Positions 25 to 27,935 of a stretch of 34,571 bases of DNA are shown here, piece by piece. A model generated the notes under the pieces. That model was not told the DNA's origin and did not search any database. It saw only the letters and a program-made list of their open reading frames with translations. Origin of the DNA: Planctomycetaceae bacterium (GTDB taxonomy: Bacteria; Planctomycetota; Planctomycetia; Pirellulales; Pirellulaceae); NCBI GenBank assembly GCA_027487375.1, contig JAIYDQ010000006.1, positions 1 through 34,571 of the forward strand, given 5' to 3'. Position numbers and translations under genes: made by a program. Position 1 is the first letter of the stretch, and every line of letters starts with the position of its first letter.

Positions 25-3000
25 TCAGTCGTTTTTGTTCGTCGATTTGAAATACTCGGGCGCAATCTTTCTCAGATGCTGAGCGACTTTATCGACCGCA
101 AACAATATCTGTTGGTTCGTGTGGGTCGAGTTGATGAAGAATCGAAGTCTTGTCGCAGACTCTTCCACTGCTGGGTAGAGAATGGGTTGAACGTTGACTC
201 CTGATTCAAACATTCGACGCGACAATTGCAACGCATGGAGTGAGTTACCGGTAATCACGGGTACGACTGCCGTATCACCGCTGCTGCCAGTGTTGAGGCC
301 GTGCTTCTTAGCTTCGGTCAAAAACAGTCTGGACGCTTCCTTTAGTCGAGTTACTCGCTCGGGATTCTCCTTCAACACTTTTAGCGATGCTATTGCAGCT
401 GCCGTATTTGGGGGCGACAGCCCGACGCTGAAGACAAACCCGGGAGTTGTGTACTTGAGATATTCAATAAGCGACTTTCTACCAGCGATATAGCCGCCAC
501 AGGATCCAAAGGATTTGCTCAGTGTACCCATCCAAATGTCGACGTCTCTTGGATCGACACCAAAGTGTTCGCCAATTCCGCGACCGGTCGCTCCCATCGT
601 TCCAATACTGTGGGCCTCGTCTACCATCAGCCAGCACTGATGCTTTTTCACGATTTCGATGAACTTCGGAAGATTTGGATAATCTCCGTCCATGCTGTAA
701 ACGCCTTCGATGATCACGAGAACACGTCGATAGTTAGAGCGTTGTTCTGTGAGAGCTTCGTCAAGAGCTTCCCAGTCGTTATGAGGGAATGGGCGTCTTC
801 TCGCACCAGACAGCATTGCTCCTTGCACGATACTATTGTGCGACAACGAATCGTGTAGGATTAAGTCAGGAGTATCCACGATATGACCAATGATTGTTTC
901 GTTGGTCGAATGCCCTCCGACCAGGACGATCGAATCATCGACTCCGATCCATTCAGCGATTCCCTTCTCAAGTTCGCGGTGAAGATCTTTTTCTCCACTT
1001 ACTAATCGCGACGCGGAGACGCTTGTTCCGTATTTGGCAACTGCGTCGATAACTGCTTGGCTTACTTCGGGGTCACCACTCATACCGAGGTAGTTGTAGC
1101 TTGCGAAGCTAATGTATTCTTTGCCATCGATTGTTGTCGTATCGCGAGTCAGACCTTGATGGACCGAGAAATAAGGATTCGGTACGCCCGTCATATCGAA
1201 TTGCATCATCGTTTGCTTGAGCCGACGATATTCCGGTAGTTGATCGAACTGGTATTCGTCAGGCGTAATCGTACGCGGGGCCTTCGGTGCATCGTCTTGT
1301 TCTGGCGCGAGATCCGAGATGACGCGATCTTTACCGAAAAGGCTTTCTAAAGCTTCTGCAATTTCTCGGATCGTTTCAATTTCTTGAAGCGTCTCTTCTG
1401 GTATTCGGCCTCCGAAAGCATTCTCGAGCGAGTGAGCAATCTGAAGTCGTTCTAAGCTATCGAGTCCTAAGTCGACGACAATGTTGGTGTCCAAGTCCAG
1501 TAACTTCGCTCGTTCTTGAGCGACCGCTTTGACGGCTCGTTTTACAATCTCAACAACATCGACGTCCGGGTCACGCGTCTTTTTCGCGATAACCGCGGTT
1601 GGTCGCGCGGTGGCTTTGGAAGGTCGACCGGCTAGCTGATCGACAGTTGCTGCGGCGATCATTGGGGCCGTTTGTGGTAGATCGTCTTCCCAGCTAACCC
1701 ATTTGGCGATCACACGGAGCGTGTCGTCTTTGAATCCTTGAAGACATGCGTGGCGTTGTATCTTGCCACTGGAGGTTTTCGGAAGTGATCCGCTTCGGAC
1801 AAGGATGACTGCATCTGGAGGTAGTTCGTGAACTTGAGTGACTGATTTTCGAATGGCTTGAATTACTGGTTCCCAATCATCTTCCAGGGAACGTTGCACC
1901 TCCAAAGCGATGATCAGTCGCTCACGGCCGTCGATATCATCAGAGAATGCTGCGGCAGCTGAAGACTGGATGGATTCGTGACATTCCTCGACTGTCTGTT
2001 CAATGTCTTGAGGGTAACGATTTACGCCACGGACAATAATCAGGTCCTTGACGCGACCAGCTACGAATAGTTGGCCGTCTTCGAAGAACCCAAGATCGCC
2101 CGTTCGCAAGAAAGGTCCCTGCCCATCCGCAGTCATCGCGTTAAACGTCTTCTCGGTGATATCAGGTTTTTCCCAATAGCCGGTTCCAGCGCTTGGGCTC
2201 TGAATCCAGATCTCACCGATCTGATCATCGGGCAGAATCGCGGATGTTTCCGTGTCGACGATTTCGACACGTTCATTTGGCGACGTTTGACCACAGCCAA
2301 CGAGTGCTCGCGAGTCAGGCGTGTTTCGTTCAACTGGTAGAACAACTCGAGCGGCAAGGTTACGTCCATCGAAGTGTCTTATCACGGGAACGTCTGCGTG
2401 AGGACCGGCTGTTACGATCAACGTGGTTTCCGCCATGCCATAGGTCGGAAGGTGTGACGAGTGCCGAAATCCAACCTTCTCAAACTTGCGGCTGAAGGCC
2501 TCGAGAGTACTCGCCCGTACCGGTTCAGCGCCATTAAATGCGACTCGCCACTTACTCAGATCAAGCCCCTTCATCTCCTCTTCTGTGACTTTATCAACGC
2601 AAAGCTGATAAGCAAAATTCGGTCCGCCTGACATGGTCACGTTGTACTTCGTGATGGCTCGAAGCCAACGCACCGGGCGTTGAAGAAAAGACATAGGGCT
2701 CATCAAAGCAAGTGGCAATCCCAAGAAAACAGGGCTCAGGATGCCGCCGACCAAGCCCATATCGTGGTAGGTAGGTAACCAGCTAGCGCCAATCTCGTCA
2801 TGTACCTGACCAAACAGGTAGGCGATCATCTCACAATTCCGCATGATGCACTCGTGCGTAAGGACGACACCCTTGGGCGTACCAGTAGATCCGGACGTGT
2901 ATTGCAAAACTGCAACATCTTCCGCGTCGATGGTGACTGGTGAAAACTGAATCGCCATCGATCGATCGACTCGGTCGCTTGAGATGAGCTTCATCGTCGA

Positions 3001-3465
3001 CATGTCTTCGCGAGTCGCATCGTCCTTCATGATCTGCGTGGCGGTGGTTTCCACAGTCAAACCAAATTTCGCAGCGCAGTCTTGCGCGATCCCTTGAATT
3101 CGCGACCCTTTTCGGTTGCGCCGTGGTGGGAATGCGGGGACTGCTGTGCAACCTGCATAAAGGCAACCGAAGAAACCAATGATGAAATCCAGTCCCGGCG
3201 GGTACATCAAAATTCCGCGATCACCTGGATTGGCTACTTTCAGAATCTCAACTGCCAAAGCGCGCGCAGCGTGATCCAGCTCGGCATAGCTAAGCGTTTC
3301 GTCTTGGTCCGTCTCTCCGTCGGTGAACCAGAACGCAGGGGACGTTGGCTGGACATTTGCCCAATGCCGCAAGCTATCCACCAGGTGCGTTCGCGGAAAG
3401 AACTTCGGATTCACCAGACTCAGGTCGAGTGGGCGGTGACGATTGTCAAGAACGTTGGCATTCAT
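25..3465 (-). CDS. Fusion protein: fatty-acyl-AMP ligase (FAAL) + acyl carrier protein + PLP-dependent alpha-oxoamine synthase (AONS/KBL/SPT-like)
   Basis: 1146-aa ORF. AMP-binding motif LQYTSGSTGTPKGVVLTHE and FAAL-like NRYPQDIE; ACP phosphopantetheine motif DLGLDSLERLQ (Ser ~670); AONS motifs YNYLGMSGDPEV, VDEAHSIGTMGATGRG and PLP-lysine motif TLSKSFGSCGGYI (Lys ~984). Confidence 0.93.
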   Translation of the reverse strand: MNANVLDNRHRPLDLSLVNPKFFPRTHLVDSLRHWANVQPTSPAFWFTDGETDQDETLSYAELDHAARALAVEILKVANPGDRGILMYPPGLDFIIGFFGCLYAGCTAVPAFPPRRNRKGSRIQGIAQDCAAKFGLTVETTATQIMKDDATREDMSTMKLISSDRVDRSMAIQFSPVTIDAEDVAVLQYTSGSTGTPKGVVLTHECIMRNCEMIAYLFGQVHDEIGASWLPTYHDMGLVGGILSPVFLGLPLALMSPMSFLQRPVRWLRAITKYNVTMSGGPNFAYQLCVDKVTEEEMKGLDLSKWRVAFNGAEPVRASTLEAFSRKFEKVGFRHSSHLPTYGMAETTLIVTAGPHADVPVIRHFDGRNLAARVVLPVERNTPDSRALVGCGQTSPNERVEIVDTETSAILPDDQIGEIWIQSPSAGTGYWEKPDITEKTFNAMTADGQGPFLRTGDLGFFEDGQLFVAGRVKDLIIVRGVNRYPQDIEQTVEECHESIQSSAAAAFSDDIDGRERLIIALEVQRSLEDDWEPVIQAIRKSVTQVHELPPDAVILVRSGSLPKTSSGKIQRHACLQGFKDDTLRVIAKWVSWEDDLPQTAPMIAAATVDQLAGRPSKATARPTAVIAKKTRDPDVDVVEIVKRAVKAVAQERAKLLDLDTNIVVDLGLDSLERLQIAHSLENAFGGRIPEETLQEIETIREIAEALESLFGKDRVISDLAPEQDDAPKAPRTITPDEYQFDQLPEYRRLKQTMMQFDMTGVPNPYFSVHQGLTRDTTTIDGKEYISFASYNYLGMSGDPEVSQAVIDAVAKYGTSVSASRLVSGEKDLHRELEKGIAEWIGVDDSIVLVGGHSTNETIIGHIVDTPDLILHDSLSHNSIVQGAMLSGARRRPFPHNDWEALDEALTEQRSNYRRVLVIIEGVYSMDGDYPNLPKFIEIVKKHQCWLMVDEAHSIGTMGATGRGIGEHFGVDPRDVDIWMGTLSKSFGSCGGYIAGRKSLIEYLKYTTPGFVFSVGLSPPNTAAAIASLKVLKENPERVTRLKEASRLFLTEAKKHGLNTGSSGDTAVVPVITGNSLHALQLSRRMFESGVNVQPILYPAVEESATRLRFFINSTHTNQQILFAVDKVAQHLRKIAPEYFKSTNKND

Positions 3466-3830
3466 GTGCTAGTAGAGCGCCGAAGCGACGGTCCAACAGT
3501 AAGAAAATGTAACAATAAGGCGTAATATTCTTTGCAACTTAACAAATTTAGCTAACCAAACCAGTCGAAAGGACTGATCCGCACCTCAGTATAGCCAAAT
3601 ACCAAGTCCACTATTCGCCTACGTATTCAGTGTATCGGTCGCTACCGACGGCACAGCCCCCACGGTCTCTCTACAGAGGAACATTTAGGATAACCGGATT
3701 AGATTCCATTTCCGACCGCTGACTGCGGATTTTCAGGCTTTCGCCCATCGTCCGGTAATGCGAACCCAAGGGACAACCCATACAAAAATATCTTTAGCAC
3801 AATTCACCCCCAGTTTCCCCGGTAAGGGAT

Positions 3831-22324: not shown

Positions 22325-23479
22325 TTAGGGCGTGGTAATCCAGTCAAGATTTAAGCGAGCACAATCGATGTCATTATCGTCTTCGTATAGACACAGCACT
22401 GTGCCGTCTTGTAGTACGGCAAGATCGGAGTAGGCGGCTTTTCCTGGATCAATTGTCTTGCTGATGGACCAGGACTTACCGTCATCGCGACTGAGTTTGA
22501 TGCAAAGATTTTCGCGTTTGCCTCTGCCTTTCGGGATTTCCTTTCCTTGCGCATCGATTGGCCGCGTGTGTGGATTCGAGAATAGCAATACGCCCGAAGG
22601 ATGCCATAGCAAGCTTGCCATACAGCGTGGTTCCCACAACTCGGGGTGAAACTCAGGCTTGCTCCATGAGGTCGCTCCGTCAGCACTGATCGTGACGAGC
22701 TTACGATTCGGTTGAGATTCATTTCGAGAGATCATCATCACACGTCCATCAGCGAGTGTTGCGAGGATAGACTCGTTGGGGTTTCCGAATTCCCCTTCAT
22801 TGGGAATAGCGATATCTCCGGCTTGCCATGTCTTGCCGTGATCATCACTGTAGATCGTGCCGCAGGCTGATGGTGCGTGATCACCGATTCCGCCAAATGC
22901 TATCCAGATCGGAACCACAAGCCGCCCATTCTTGAGCTGGATACCGTGGCCGGGGCCAGTCGCGATAACTTTCCAATTGTAAGTGTTACGAAACGTCTCA
23001 AACGAAGAGGTTATCTCGACGGCATTGCTCCAAGTTTGGCCGTCATCGACGCTGCGCATCGAAAAGCATCGTGCATAATTGACGCAATAAAGGAACTCGA
23101 TTGCTCCTGTTTCGCGATCGATGATCGCCACTGGGTTATTCACTGTTTGCTCATGCTCGCCACCCGTTACTTTACGTGGGTTGCCTTCGATGCGAGGACC
23201 GTCATGGGCGATCCGTTTCGATTCTTCCCAAGTCTTCCCGCCATCTGTGCTGCGACGCAAATGGATCTCGATCTCGCCCCAATCGGAGCTATTGTTCTTC
23301 CGTGCTTCGGAGTATGCGAGCACAGTTCCCTTGGGGGTGACAACAATACCTGGGATGCGATACCGTGCGATCCCATTTAGCCCTTGCGGGAAGACGGGTG
23401 TTGTTTCAAGCAGAGGCTCCGCGTAAGCAACATTCCAAAAGAAAGTTACGAGAAGAAGCGACGTTAGCAAGTGTTTCAT
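22325..23479 (-). CDS. Secreted exo-alpha-sialidase (BNR/Asp-box repeat)
   Basis: 384 aa; signal peptide, RIP motif RYRIPGIV, Asp boxes STDGGKTWEE, SVDDGQTWSN, SDDHGKTWQA, SRDDGKSWSI. Confidence 0.92.
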   Translation of the reverse strand: MKHLLTSLLLVTFFWNVAYAEPLLETTPVFPQGLNGIARYRIPGIVVTPKGTVLAYSEARKNNSSDWGEIEIHLRRSTDGGKTWEESKRIAHDGPRIEGNPRKVTGGEHEQTVNNPVAIIDRETGAIEFLYCVNYARCFSMRSVDDGQTWSNAVEITSSFETFRNTYNWKVIATGPGHGIQLKNGRLVVPIWIAFGGIGDHAPSACGTIYSDDHGKTWQAGDIAIPNEGEFGNPNESILATLADGRVMMISRNESQPNRKLVTISADGATSWSKPEFHPELWEPRCMASLLWHPSGVLLFSNPHTRPIDAQGKEIPKGRGKRENLCIKLSRDDGKSWSISKTIDPGKAAYSDLAVLQDGTVLCLYEDDNDIDCARLNLDWITTP

Positions 23480-23521
23480 AGAAGAATCTCGTGTCGTGTG
23501 AAGAGGAATAAAAGATCTCGA

Positions 23522-25234
23522 TTACTTTGTTGGCTTCCACTGCAAAACTTGGCCGTCTGCGGAGAGCTTGGACCGTAGCTTTTCGTAATCAAGTGACTGC
23601 ACCGGTAGGTCTTCGTCGATCGACAAGCAAGCGGCGGTCGCTGCACTTTGGCTAGTGATCATCAAAACTGGTTCCATGCGGATGCTGGCGAAGGCCGTAT
23701 GGCTCGCGCTGAGTGCGAAGGTTACGAATAAGTTCTCGCATTCGCTCTGAAACGGTACGATGGCATCGTATCCGATGTTGTATGGACCGAATCCACCGCG
23801 GGAACTAGCGAGCTTGCCTTCGCGACAAACGGAACCGTCCTTTATGATGCGTCGAATCTCATGCACATCGGTACCATAGCTGCCAAGGCCGATCGACTTG
23901 GTCGCGATTTTCCTGCCAAAAGTGTGATGTTCGGTCATGACGAGATCGCTTACCATACGACGGGCCTCGCGAATATAGAGTTGATGTGGCCAACCGCCTG
24001 TTTCAGGAAACTCGTCACTTGGTAAACCGAACCGCTGCATATCCTCACGAACTTTCCTAGGCACGCGTTGATCGGTTGCTAGGAAGTGAAGAAGCCCACG
24101 ATGGTAGTTCTCGTGCGCTTTGGCGATTAACTCACGTTCGGCATAGCTCGCACTTGGCCATGCGTGGCTCGCGCCTGGTAAGTTGCTGCCAAAAGTTGCC
24201 GTATTGAAATCCCATTTATTGTTGGGAAGCGGATCATGTTTGGTGAACCAACGCAAGTCCATATCATCCCCGTTATGCAAGCATGCTTGAATAAACCGCC
24301 CCACAATCTCGTATTGTTTGGGATCATAATCGGCCGGCGGGACGATTGGTAAACGATCGGAAGCTGTAGTCAGGCAAAGTCGAAAGCAGTAGGCCTGTAC
24401 GCCAGGAGCAGGATCACCTGGCTTGCCTGGCCCTTCAAGTTCGATCAGCGGCAGCAAACCACTTTCAGGACGACCGACGATAACATAGGGATCAAGTGGA
24501 AAGTCTCGATCCCAGACACCTTGGCCTCCAATGACCCGTCCGTTGGCTAATGGCACGAGATGTCCAGAACGCGGTTTGTACTTTGCGTCATACTGGATTC
24601 CATTGAGCGACTCGCCGTACTTATCATTGCCTTCTCGCATTAAAGTGAAGCTTACACCAGCCTTCGCCATCAAGTCCCCTTCATACGTGCAGTCGATAAA
24701 CATCTTCGCACGAATCGTATCGCCGTTCTCCAAATTGATTGCTGTGATACGCGGACTATTCTTGGTGACCGACGCTAACTTAGCATCACGCAGCACCGTC
24801 ACGCTTGCTTCAGCAACCATTTCATTAAAGACGCGCTCCGCTTGATGCGGTTCAATTGCATACGCACCTCCCGTTGCTGGGCCCCCTTCGTTTTGGAATG
24901 GCCGATCCCATTCGAGCTTCTTCCCGTACTTACCTACAAGTCGCGTGAAGTACTCGCGAGCGATACCGCCTACACTGCGCGGATCACCAATGTCAACCGC
25001 ACTGAGACCGCCGCTTGTCATGCCGCCAAGATGACGCCCCGGTTCCGCAAGGATGACATGCTTACCCATCCGCGAGGCTTGCACTGCCGCCACCACGCCT
25101 CCTGAAGTGCCACCGTAGATGCAGACATCGTATTCATAAACTCGTGCGAAGGTCTGCTGATGGAACGTCGTAATCAAAAGGACGATGAGCATGTATTGGA
25201 AATACATTACAAAGAATGAAGGATGAACTTTCAT
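23522..25234 (-). CDS. Secreted FAD-dependent oxidoreductase (FAD_oxidored family)
   Basis: N-terminal signal-like segment, YDVCIYGGTSGGVVAAVQASRMGKHVILAEPGRHLGGMTSGGL (Rossmann/FAD). ORF opens at 25240; the ATG at 25234 overlaps the nanA-like stop as ATGA. Confidence 0.9.
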   Translation of the reverse strand: MKVHPSFFVMYFQYMLIVLLITTFHQQTFARVYEYDVCIYGGTSGGVVAAVQASRMGKHVILAEPGRHLGGMTSGGLSAVDIGDPRSVGGIAREYFTRLVGKYGKKLEWDRPFQNEGGPATGGAYAIEPHQAERVFNEMVAEASVTVLRDAKLASVTKNSPRITAINLENGDTIRAKMFIDCTYEGDLMAKAGVSFTLMREGNDKYGESLNGIQYDAKYKPRSGHLVPLANGRVIGGQGVWDRDFPLDPYVIVGRPESGLLPLIELEGPGKPGDPAPGVQAYCFRLCLTTASDRLPIVPPADYDPKQYEIVGRFIQACLHNGDDMDLRWFTKHDPLPNNKWDFNTATFGSNLPGASHAWPSASYAERELIAKAHENYHRGLLHFLATDQRVPRKVREDMQRFGLPSDEFPETGGWPHQLYIREARRMVSDLVMTEHHTFGRKIATKSIGLGSYGTDVHEIRRIIKDGSVCREGKLASSRGGFGPYNIGYDAIVPFQSECENLFVTFALSASHTAFASIRMEPVLMITSQSAATAACLSIDEDLPVQSLDYEKLRSKLSADGQVLQWKPTK

Positions 25235-26145
25235 AACCATGAGAAGAATCCCATTTGATCGAGATCGCGATGAAGCTCTGCTTGTTGATCGTTGGTAAGG
25301 CCAGCAATAGGCAATCGCGGCGGCCCGACGTCGACACCGCGAAGCTTCATGACAGTCTTTGCGGCAGCCATGTAACCATACGAGGCAAGAAGCTTAATGA
25401 GTCGAACGGCTCGCATTTGCTCATCGCGAGCGGCTTGCAGATCGTTTACCGCGAAGGCTTGCATGACTCGGCGATAAATCGGGGCAGCAAAGTTATAGCT
25501 GCTACCAACTGCTCCTATTGCACCGAGCGACAATGCTGGAAGCAGCATCTCATCGAACCCGAAAGGTATGTCGAACTTGCTGTTGGAATGACGGCGACAA
25601 AGTTGATACTCCATCAAGTTGCTGCTCGTAAACTTGATGCCGGAAAGGTTGGGGATTCGAGGTGTGGCTGCTTCGAGAAACTCTGAAGGCCAAATGTTGA
25701 TTCCAGTCATCGTCGGAATCTCGTAATAGTAGAAAGGCAATTCTGGTGCAGCCGAGGCGATCTTAGACATGCTCTCGACAAGAGTTTGAACATTTCCAGG
25801 CTTGAAGTACGAGGGTGCGACGGCGCTGACCGCCGCAACGCCGAGTTGCTGAGCTTGCTTAGCGAGGCTGACCGAATCGTCCAAGCAATTGGAGCCTACA
25901 TGCACGATTAATTGGAGGTCCGTCCCTCGAACAACTCGACTCCAGCGATCCGCAAGCTGCAGTCGTTCATCAAGGGTAAGTGAGCTGCTTTCTCCGGTCG
26001 TGCCGCCAATGAATGCATATCGCACACCGTCAGAATGAAGCATTGCAAATTGCTGCTGGACGATGCTGAGGTTGAGTGACCCATCCGCGTGAAAGGGAGT
26101 ATGAGTCGCAGCAACGAGACCGTGGATTCGGAATGACGATGACAT
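25231..26145 (-). CDS. nanA: N-acetylneuraminate lyase-like protein (DapA/NanA superfamily)
   Basis: 304 aa; GLVAATHTPFHADGSLNL, GGTTGESSSLTLDER, PFYYYEIPTMTGIN, LSGIKFTSSN (Schiff-base lysine). Confidence 0.88.
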   Translation of the reverse strand: MSSSFRIHGLVAATHTPFHADGSLNLSIVQQQFAMLHSDGVRYAFIGGTTGESSSLTLDERLQLADRWSRVVRGTDLQLIVHVGSNCLDDSVSLAKQAQQLGVAAVSAVAPSYFKPGNVQTLVESMSKIASAAPELPFYYYEIPTMTGINIWPSEFLEAATPRIPNLSGIKFTSSNLMEYQLCRRHSNSKFDIPFGFDEMLLPALSLGAIGAVGSSYNFAAPIYRRVMQAFAVNDLQAARDEQMRAVRLIKLLASYGYMAAAKTVMKLRGVDVGPPRLPIAGLTNDQQAELHRDLDQMGFFSWL

Positions 26146-26187
26146 AGTAAATTCAATTTATAGTTGATGATTCGAGACCGAATGGAT

Positions 26188-27255
26188 TCACTGAAGCGGA
26201 TTCAATGGAAGGCTCCAAACTTCCGGCGTGCGGACGCGTGGTCGTACTTCTCCGCTTGGAACTACGTAGTCATTCTGCCAGACAACTGTGGATGCAGTTG
26301 CCCTTGAGAACGGACCGTTATCTTGCACCGTCCATGAATCACTTGCCACGTCGTAAACAAGCCCATCGCGAGGAAACCCAGGGTGAGCATTTATGGGGTT
26401 GAATGCTACGTTCACGCCGTCATCGCCGCTGTAGACAATCAGCTTAGAACCAATCGATGCGGCAGGAGAAGGTGCCGCGACTGCTGATCGAGGGAGATCG
26501 GATATTCGTGTCCATCCCTCGTTGGATTTATATCGATATGCATCGCGAAGATAAGTTCGCACGGGCTTTTGCGCTGAATTCGAGGAAAGGCTGGTGCCAC
26601 TGAATAGATAGAATGCGTCATGACTTGCACCTGCAACGGCAAGCATTCGTTCGGGGCCGGGCCATGTTGGTAGCTCCTTCCAAGCGAGTTCCTTCGCGTC
26701 GAGATCAAGCGACCAAAAGTTGTGCATGGCGGTTGTAGAAGGCGGCATTTCTATGCCACCGGCGATGTAAACAATTCGTTGCACTAAAGCTCCACAAGTG
26801 TTTGCACATGGGATCGGCAATGAAGGAAGCGGTTTTGTGATAATCCTTCCATCAACCCACTCTAAACAGAAACTGTCGGAGTAGTGACGAGTCGCATCAC
26901 TTCCTCCAAAGCACATGAGACTATTGTTGGCGCTGATAGCGAGCCCGTAGCCTCTTGGCCTTGGTAATCGAAACTCCGATTTCCATTTGCCATTAGGTGT
27001 ATCGAGAACAAAGATTGTGTCGTGCCATACTTTTTGAAAGACATCCGACCATTTGTCTTTGGGGATGTTTGCACCCCCCGCGACAATCAATGCTCCGTTG
27101 CTAGTACCCGCAAACATACCTGCAAAGCCCTCATCGTTCGGTAAAGATGGCAGCTTCGACCAACCAGATGAAACAGGCTCAGCGGCGACTATCTCAATCG
27201 ATATCGTCACCACAAGAGTAACCGCGTAAAGAGTCTGGGCTTCAAAAAATCTCAT
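26188..27255 (-). CDS. Secreted kelch-repeat protein, N-acetylneuraminate epimerase (NanM)-like
   Basis: 355 aa; signal peptide; WSKLPSLPNDEGFAGMFAGTSNGALIVAGGANIPKDKW and repeated kelch blades (IVYIAGGIE, AFYLFSGTS, LIVYSGDDG). Confidence 0.86.
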   Translation of the reverse strand: MRFFEAQTLYAVTLVVTISIEIVAAEPVSSGWSKLPSLPNDEGFAGMFAGTSNGALIVAGGANIPKDKWSDVFQKVWHDTIFVLDTPNGKWKSEFRLPRPRGYGLAISANNSLMCFGGSDATRHYSDSFCLEWVDGRIITKPLPSLPIPCANTCGALVQRIVYIAGGIEMPPSTTAMHNFWSLDLDAKELAWKELPTWPGPERMLAVAGASHDAFYLFSGTSLSSNSAQKPVRTYLRDAYRYKSNEGWTRISDLPRSAVAAPSPAASIGSKLIVYSGDDGVNVAFNPINAHPGFPRDGLVYDVASDSWTVQDNGPFSRATASTVVWQNDYVVPSGEVRPRVRTPEVWSLPLNPLQ

Positions 27256-27317
27256 CCTTTTCGGATTCCGTTATGAAAGTGCAGTAGAAACCGCATGCAT
27301 TAGATTGAGACTGGTTG

Positions 27318-27935
27318 TCATCGCGAATCTCCAAAGAGTGTATCTTTACCGGATCGGATGTGTCGACGAATCATCGAGTCGGCTCCTTCTGGTGATGCAT
27401 TGCGTAGTTCGCTAAGGAGTTTAACGTGCCGATTGTAGGTGGCTTTCCGAGTAGGTGCGATTACCGAAATCTGATGAAACATACTTAGCCTCACAACACG
27501 ATCGAAACAACTGATCAGTGCTTCACAATCAGCGAGCGCAACGAGTGCTTGGTGAAATTCAAAGTCTTCCGACCAAATCGGATGACCTGAATCGGCCGCC
27601 TTATCGGCCTTCGTCGCAAGTAATCTTAGTTTCGGAAAGGCCTTTTTAATCTTCTCGCCACAGTAAATCCGCGCACATTGGCATTCAATCGCTTCGCGCA
27701 GCAAGAGTTGACCGCGAACATCTTCAATACTCGGCGAAACAACAAATGTTCCTTGTCGATGACGTGTCGTCAAAAAGCCTTCGTAGGATAATCGCTGCAC
27801 TGCGTCCGATACTGGAATCAGACTTACCGCGAGCTGATCAGCAATCTTGCGACGATCCAACAAGTCACCGGGGCGAATCTCGCGTTCGAGCAACTGACTG
27901 AGAATGTGCTGATAAACCTGCTCGGACAAAATCAT
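27318..27935 (-). CDS. GntR family transcriptional regulator (FCD-type)
   Basis: 205 aa; N-terminal wHTH (QVYQHILSQLLEREIRPGDLLDRRKIADQLAVSLIPVSDAVQRLSYEGFL), C-terminal FCD-like helical domain. Confidence 0.9.
   Translation of the reverse strand: MILSEQVYQHILSQLLEREIRPGDLLDRRKIADQLAVSLIPVSDAVQRLSYEGFLTTRHRQGTFVVSPSIEDVRGQLLLREAIECQCARIYCGEKIKKAFPKLRLLATKADKAADSGHPIWSEDFEFHQALVALADCEALISCFDRVVRLSMFHQISVIAPTRKATYNRHVKLLSELRNASPEGADSMIRRHIRSGKDTLFGDSR

Follow-up and report, generated by a model that had tools for sequence, protein, structure and literature searches.

Two described routes to sphingoid bases are close to the locus that we analyse here. In Caulobacter crescentus and Escherichia coli BL21, AasR loads a free fatty acid on AcpR, serine palmitoyltransferase (SPT) uses the acyl-AcpR, and the pathway later requires the acyltransferase encoded by aca/bCerS, called yghO in E. 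coli (PMC9386255). In 2025, SgaAB clusters were shown to make sphinganines and phosphoglycerol-sphingolipids, SgaB being an SPT that makes 3-ketosphinganines with a near-exclusive preference for L-serine (PMC12134224). Fatty acyl-AMP ligases (FAALs) put free fatty acids on the holo form of acyl carrier proteins (ACPs) and reject CoA (PMC8460268), and FAAL-ACP didomains that supply other enzymes are known (PMC11837247). We studied a gene that joins a FAAL, an ACP and an alpha-oxoamine synthase (AOS) in one chain. It lies in a stretch of 34,571 nucleotides from a Planctomycetaceae bacterium of the Pirellulales (assembly GCA_027487375.1, contig JAIYDQ010000006.1), hereafter the window, which is an entire contig (G000:C508) of a genome that is 87% complete. 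Judging from its sequence, the fused protein is probably a single-chain, acyl-CoA-independent enzyme of the SPT type, providing 3-ketosphinganine for a ceramide pathway that spans the order.

The likeness to AasR, AcpR and SPT lies in the division of labour: a ligase activates, a dedicated ACP tethers, an enzyme dependent on pyridoxal phosphate (PLP) condenses, and bCerS/aca (YghO) completes the pathway. Those are three separate proteins, whereas the Pirellulales form is one chain, with neither a CerR orthologue nor an operon; its FAAL is 34% identical to AasR, and its AOS is about 33% identical to the E. coli SPT and belongs to another clade. In the SgaA-SgaB system of Pseudomonas fluorescens MYb115 (PMC12134224), an acyl chain built by an iterative polyketide synthase (PKS) is joined to serine by an AOS, giving 3-ketosphinganine. 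The AOS of clusters resembling SgaAB are 52–53% identical to that of the window, but there the PKS builds the chain and the AOS is a separate protein, while the FAAL of the fused protein would take a ready-made free fatty acid. PKSs with a C-terminal ACP-AOS (G205, G107, L190 and L189, from Planctomycetota, Planktothrix and Streptomyces) have an AOS 51–59% identical to the window's, and carry KS-AT and other domains in place of the FAAL or, in the FAAL-PKS-AOS of G107, beside it. BioWF, a fusion of an acyl-CoA synthetase with 8-amino-7-oxononanoate synthase (AONS), also activates a free acid and yields an aminoketone within one chain, but it proceeds via acyl-CoA without an ACP and its product is a biotin precursor (PMC9544090). 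An AOS is likewise paired with a supply of acyl-ACP in the case of the cysteate-C-fatty acyltransferase of sulfonolipid synthesis (PDB 28eh) and in an operon of Legionella lytica encoding an AOS and a FAAL-ACP-ComA protein; these AOS, however, are in a different clade (support 100/100), with cysteate in place of serine. The chemistry is already known from the three-protein and PKS-AOS systems, and the single-chain FAAL-ACP-AOS is a new fused form of it. Neither the FAAL-AOS fusion nor an order-wide link to bCerS was found in the open-licence literature, and a review of FAALs makes no mention of such a fusion (PMC11837247).

Domain architecture and conservation of the fusion

The gene occupies positions 25..3465 on the (-) strand and encodes 1146 aa, with an ATG start and its stop codon at 25-27. 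Pfam recognises, all above cut-off, AMP-binding (residues 32-431, 223 bits), a DIP2-like AMP C-domain (474-587), PP-binding (641-706, 44.5 bits) and Aminotran_1_2 (783-1125). The FAAL domain (residues about 25-591; 1692..3393, (-)) contains an insertion (~357-393) and the motifs YTSGSTG (at 189), YGMAET, RTGD, YPQDIE (484-489) and SSGK568. It is followed by the ACP domain (residues 641-706; 1348..1545, (-)), in which a DSL motif holds the phosphopantetheine Ser670, and by the PLP-dependent AOS domain (residues ~735-1126; 88..1263, (-)), with DEAHS at 949-953 and SKSFG at 983-987, including Lys984. We aligned 35 homologues (49–73% identity) and found the key positions of all three domains to be invariant: Lys198, Glu346, Asp457, Arg471 and Lys568 in the ligase, D669-S670-L671 in the carrier (35/35), and His876, Asp949, His952, Lys984 and Arg1108 at the PLP site. 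The latter comprise the stacking His, the Asp/His, the Schiff-base Lys and the carboxylate-binding Arg of a fold-type I AOS. The AlphaFold model (mean pLDDT 77, pTM 0.52) has the domains in the expected order and four helices in the ACP (635-653, 670-684, 690-693, 699-710) together with the DSL motif; its uncertainty between domains is such that ACP docking cannot be judged from it. The genome encodes three proteins of the phosphopantetheinyl-transferase type.

The closest solved relatives of the ligase domain are FAALs (7r7g, 526 bits; 3kxw, 413 bits; FadD32). It is 44% identical to the FAAL of a PKS, 7r7g. The domain is a FAAL rather than an acyl-CoA ligase, on sequence grounds, because it is co-linear with 7r7g and 3kxw through the FAAL-specific insertion, where E. 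coli FadD has a gap. A first-pass annotation, made from the letters of the window, had described one open reading frame with a FAAL-like ligase, a carrier serine near residue 670 and an AONS/SPT-like PLP domain, with the window ending 24 bp past the stop. Pfam and the motifs agree with this architecture, co-linearity and the insertion confirm the FAAL, and the coordinates of the frame confirm the distance to the end.

Since the window is a whole contig, the gene sits at a contig edge, with 24 bases between its stop and the end. We looked at homologous loci, taking the best 80 of 586 relatives, nearly all of them planctomycete records and mostly Pirellulales; the fusion may also occur in other phyla. 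The three domains stand in a single unbroken frame in 73 of the 80; six of the remaining seven are truncated by a contig end or a short contig, and the last (L039) aligns, within one frame, over residues 331-1145 alone. A copy 98% identical to the window's lies inside a separately assembled contig of 689 kb (L009). This internal copy and the 73 intact frames indicate that the fusion is neither a chance event nor an assembly join. On its 5' side, the fused gene is separated by an intergenic stretch (3466..3757, no strand) from a divergent gene resembling a ribosome hibernation factor (PF02482), which places it outside any operon on that side. On the other side, hidden in the window, L009 has a convergent gene for an ABC-transporter permease next to the fused gene. 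No homologue of CerR, bCerS or a short-chain dehydrogenase/reductase (SDR) was found on either side of the 80 loci, nor was a conserved operon partner. The earlier suggestion that only the window's end conceals partner genes finds no support: the genes to its left and the synteny of homologues, which the first-pass annotation had left for inspection, could be read through L009 and the 80 loci, and the gene stands alone. Ribosomal genes, rex and a gene for a secreted protein are frequent neighbours, appear unrelated and were dropped as partners. A second, divergent FAAL-ACP-AOS fusion of 1112 aa (L123:7624-10959, in G121) is convergent with a gene for an MMPL-family transporter.

These loci bear on whether the two halves work together at all. 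The FAAL-ACP half could supply a partner in trans and the PLP half act independently on acyl-CoA, as an enzyme like AONS or 2-amino-3-ketobutyrate CoA ligase (KBL) or as a CoA-dependent SPT; AOS enzymes including SgaB do take acyl-CoA as an in vitro surrogate (PMC12134224), and the known FAAL-ACP didomains supply other enzymes (PMC11837247). We consider this improbable, given that the order FAAL-ACP-AOS is held in 73 of the 80 loci, that relatives have ACP-AOS at the ends of PKSs, that the window's genome encodes a separate BioF-like AOS (on C397), and that none of the loci surveyed has a conserved partner gene nearby.

Affiliation of the AOS domain

Among solved structures, the AOS domain scores highest with eukaryotic SPT2/LCB2 (240 bits), followed by the Sphingobacterium SPT (218), KBL (204) and AONS (166). 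It reaches the cut-off of none of the curated models, and its best NCBIfam score among AOS models is with bioF (TIGR00858; 344 bits for a cut-off of 426). This last score, although under its cut-off, would speak for a housekeeping AONS or KBL caught in an accidental fusion, but the trees separate the domain from the BioF and KBL branches, the genome has its own BioF-like gene, and a conserved FAAL is not known to take part in biotin or threonine metabolism. We regard this explanation as largely excluded, with a very slight chance of being right.

The domain belongs instead to a clade (support 100/99) that gathers the fused FAAL-ACP-AOS proteins and PKS-linked AOS domains: KS-AT-DH-ER-KR-ACP-AOS proteins of planctomycetes (G205, G107), a PKS-AOS of Planktothrix, KS-AT-ACP-AOS of Streptomyces and a planctomycete FAAL-ACP-KS-AT-AOS. 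Pseudomonas sp. TMW 2.1634 and Caballeronia insecticola have PKS clusters whose stand-alone AOS genes also fall in a sub-clade (96/96); besides the PKS, these clusters contain an SDR gene and one resembling LTA synthase. The PKS-AOS-SDR capsule locus of Sinorhizobium meliloti is in this sub-clade as well. The fused AOS falls in a clade of SgaB-like, PKS-linked AOS; the likeness to SgaB is drawn from the make-up of the clusters, as the tree was built without the PfSgaB sequence. On the Pseudomonas plasmid, the annotation table gives the SDR as the sixth gene after the AOS, close to the spacing of SgaC implied by the MYb115 locus tags; this is suggestive only, since gene order, and not the SgaB sequence, is compared. 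A sister relation to eukaryotic SPT2/LCB2 appeared in two trees (93/85 and 93/81) and was gone in another, and we therefore do not claim it. The domain probably has its origin in, or a common ancestor with, the chain-releasing AOS of sphingolipid-making PKSs, the FAAL having replaced the PKS.

The S. meliloti genes of this clade lie on pSymB (L191:388-10151), and we take them to be RkpA-RkpG-RkpH. Their placement hints that the lipid anchor of this capsule may be a sphingoid-type lipid.

Co-occurrence with bCerS and the proposed route

The window's genome encodes a homologue of bCerS/YghO (G000:C282:45282-46388; E 6e-61 with YghO), as do four relatives. Across an even set of 249 genomes of the class (66 Pirellulales and 183 others), such homologues were found in 62 of the 66 Pirellulales and in 0 of the 183 others. 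The range of the fused gene matches that of bCerS, except for G500, where it is on L064, a contig of only 5.8 kb that may be misbinned. Within the 66 Pirellulales, 60 have both genes, 1 the fused gene only, 2 bCerS only and 3 neither; G325, G372 and G513, from three families, have neither gene and keep only a BioF-like AOS. Two genomes show physical linkage. The stand-alone AOS of G384, a genome with bCerS but no fused gene, is divergent from a bCerS-family gene, and in G344 only 177 bp separate the fused gene from a bCerS-family gene beyond it. The distant planctomycete G107 has a CTP-transferase gene, an SDR gene and a lipid-kinase gene after its PKS-AOS gene, and a bCerS-like acyltransferase-FAAL-ACP fusion is encoded about 12 kb from the PKS-AOS gene (L173:4207-7242 and L129:2713-12957); these loci are likely to be a polyketide ceramide cluster. 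The co-occurrence, the linkage in G384 and G344 and the cluster of G107 tie the AOS clade to N-acylated sphingoid lipids, and an order-wide gene that co-occurs with bCerS is more readily understood as making sphingoid bases than other aminoketones.

We propose the following route. Using ATP, the FAAL domain would adenylate a long-chain fatty acid in its free form and hand the acyl group to the phosphopantetheine arm of Ser670. The PLP domain, as a homodimer, would bind an amino acid as the external aldimine on the PLP of Lys984; L-serine is the most likely one. Condensation in cis with the ACP-bound acyl group, with loss of CO2, would release 3-ketosphinganine or a close analogue and free the ACP. 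Finally, an N-acyltransferase of the bCerS/YghO type, encoded elsewhere, would turn the base into (dihydro)ceramide, before or after reduction of the ketone. We infer every chemical step, including the loading of the acyl group, the use of serine, transfer in cis and the identity of the product, from the intact domains, their conservation, the clade and the co-occurrence with bCerS. The passage from fatty acid through ACP to aminoketone in cis had been put forward in the first-pass annotation, and it gains support from the intact domains, the clade of PKS- and ACP-linked AOS and the three-protein and PKS-AOS precedents. As for SPT activity proper, with L-serine and a long acyl thioester, it is suggested by the clade and by the co-occurrence with bCerS, and by these only.

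Several observations weigh against this assignment. The AOS domain lies outside the known bacterial SPT groups in the tree and falls short of the curated bacterial SPT models NF047599, NF047600 and NF047603 (263/500, 308/640 and 214/670), unlike the E. coli SPT, which scores 600/500. No clear CerR orthologue was found in the window's genome, which is 87% complete (best match 1.6e-7), nor a strong KDSR-like SDR, the matches being generic, weak SDRs and epimerases. The bCerS homologues are 33–38% identical, in a family of GNAT-type acyltransferases with little curated coverage. The two genes are found apart in G380, which has only the fused gene, and in G474, which has only bCerS; the association in the 66 genomes (Fisher one-sided p = 0.00085) is uncorrected and confounded by ancestry. 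The fused gene has ceramide genes in its neighbourhood only in G344. SPT-like working still seems the best reading, despite the failed curated scores. Two leads in the search for a reductase were dropped: the SDR of G107, used as a KDSR-like query, returned only generic SDRs, and a CerR-AOS pair in G121 turned out to be an epimerase with a BioF/KBL-like AOS next to it, and probably serves threonine degradation.

The chief rival keeps the cis chemistry and changes the amino acid: with Ala, Gly or another substrate, the product would be a 1-deoxy-sphingoid base or a different lipid alpha-aminoketone, serving as a secondary metabolite or signal instead of a ceramide precursor. AOS enzymes with the same catalytic residues differ in their amino acid, no residue proves serine, and our searches of the genome returned no clear reductase. 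Moreover, in two genomes (L175:260-3964 in G334 and L176:7018-10785 in G448) the same FAAL-ACP half (48–49% identical) is followed by a very different AOS (29–33%), as if swapped, which suggests that a FAAL-ACP can serve different types of AOS. Yet the sub-clade includes SgaAB-like clusters, a type reported to have a serine-specific SPT, and both co-occurrence and linkage with bCerS point to N-acylated sphingoid bases. We therefore see this rival as unlikely, if well above the other alternatives, and retain the SPT-type assignment.

By this assignment, the fused gene is the best candidate for the start of sphingolipid (ceramide) synthesis in Pirellulales. A more specific scenario, to which we give an even chance, is that a CoA-free, one-polypeptide 3-ketosphinganine synthase is the committed enzyme of an order-wide, as yet unrecognised sphingolipid pathway of Pirellulales, and that it arose when the ACP-AOS end of a sphingolipid-making PKS was recombined with a FAAL, its SPT activity coming from PKSs and not from the classical SPT lineage. 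Environmental surveys list many Planctomycetota as possible sphingolipid producers (PMC11334938). A search built on the classical operons of SPT, CerR and bCerS might overlook the gene or misjudge it, because it is fused, stands alone and scores under the curated SPT cut-offs. If the assignment is true, an entire order of abundant bacteria needs just one protein to start ceramide synthesis from free fatty acids, and the architecture may offer an enzyme that already channels its substrate, for the production of sphingoid bases from such acids.

Other gene clusters

The L. lytica operon mentioned above is on plasmid NZ_CP071528.1 (L119:7905-12776) and encodes a cysteate-acyltransferase-like AOS, a fusion of FAAL, ACP and ComA (phosphosulfolactate synthase), and a 2-phosphosulfolactate phosphatase; it resembles a pathway to capnine/sulfonolipids, here found outside Bacteroidetes. 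In G507, a DUF3419 gene, presumably BtaA-like, and a methyltransferase-like gene (L178:664-1869) are located at a distance of about 6 kb from the homologue of bCerS. The window itself contains, at 22325-27935, a putative cluster for sialic-acid catabolism, with a BNR-repeat sialidase-like protein, an FAD-dependent oxidoreductase, a DHDPS/NanA-family protein, a NanM-like kelch protein and a GntR-type regulator. A further DHDPS-family gene and a proline-racemase gene are found at 11–15 kb of the window.

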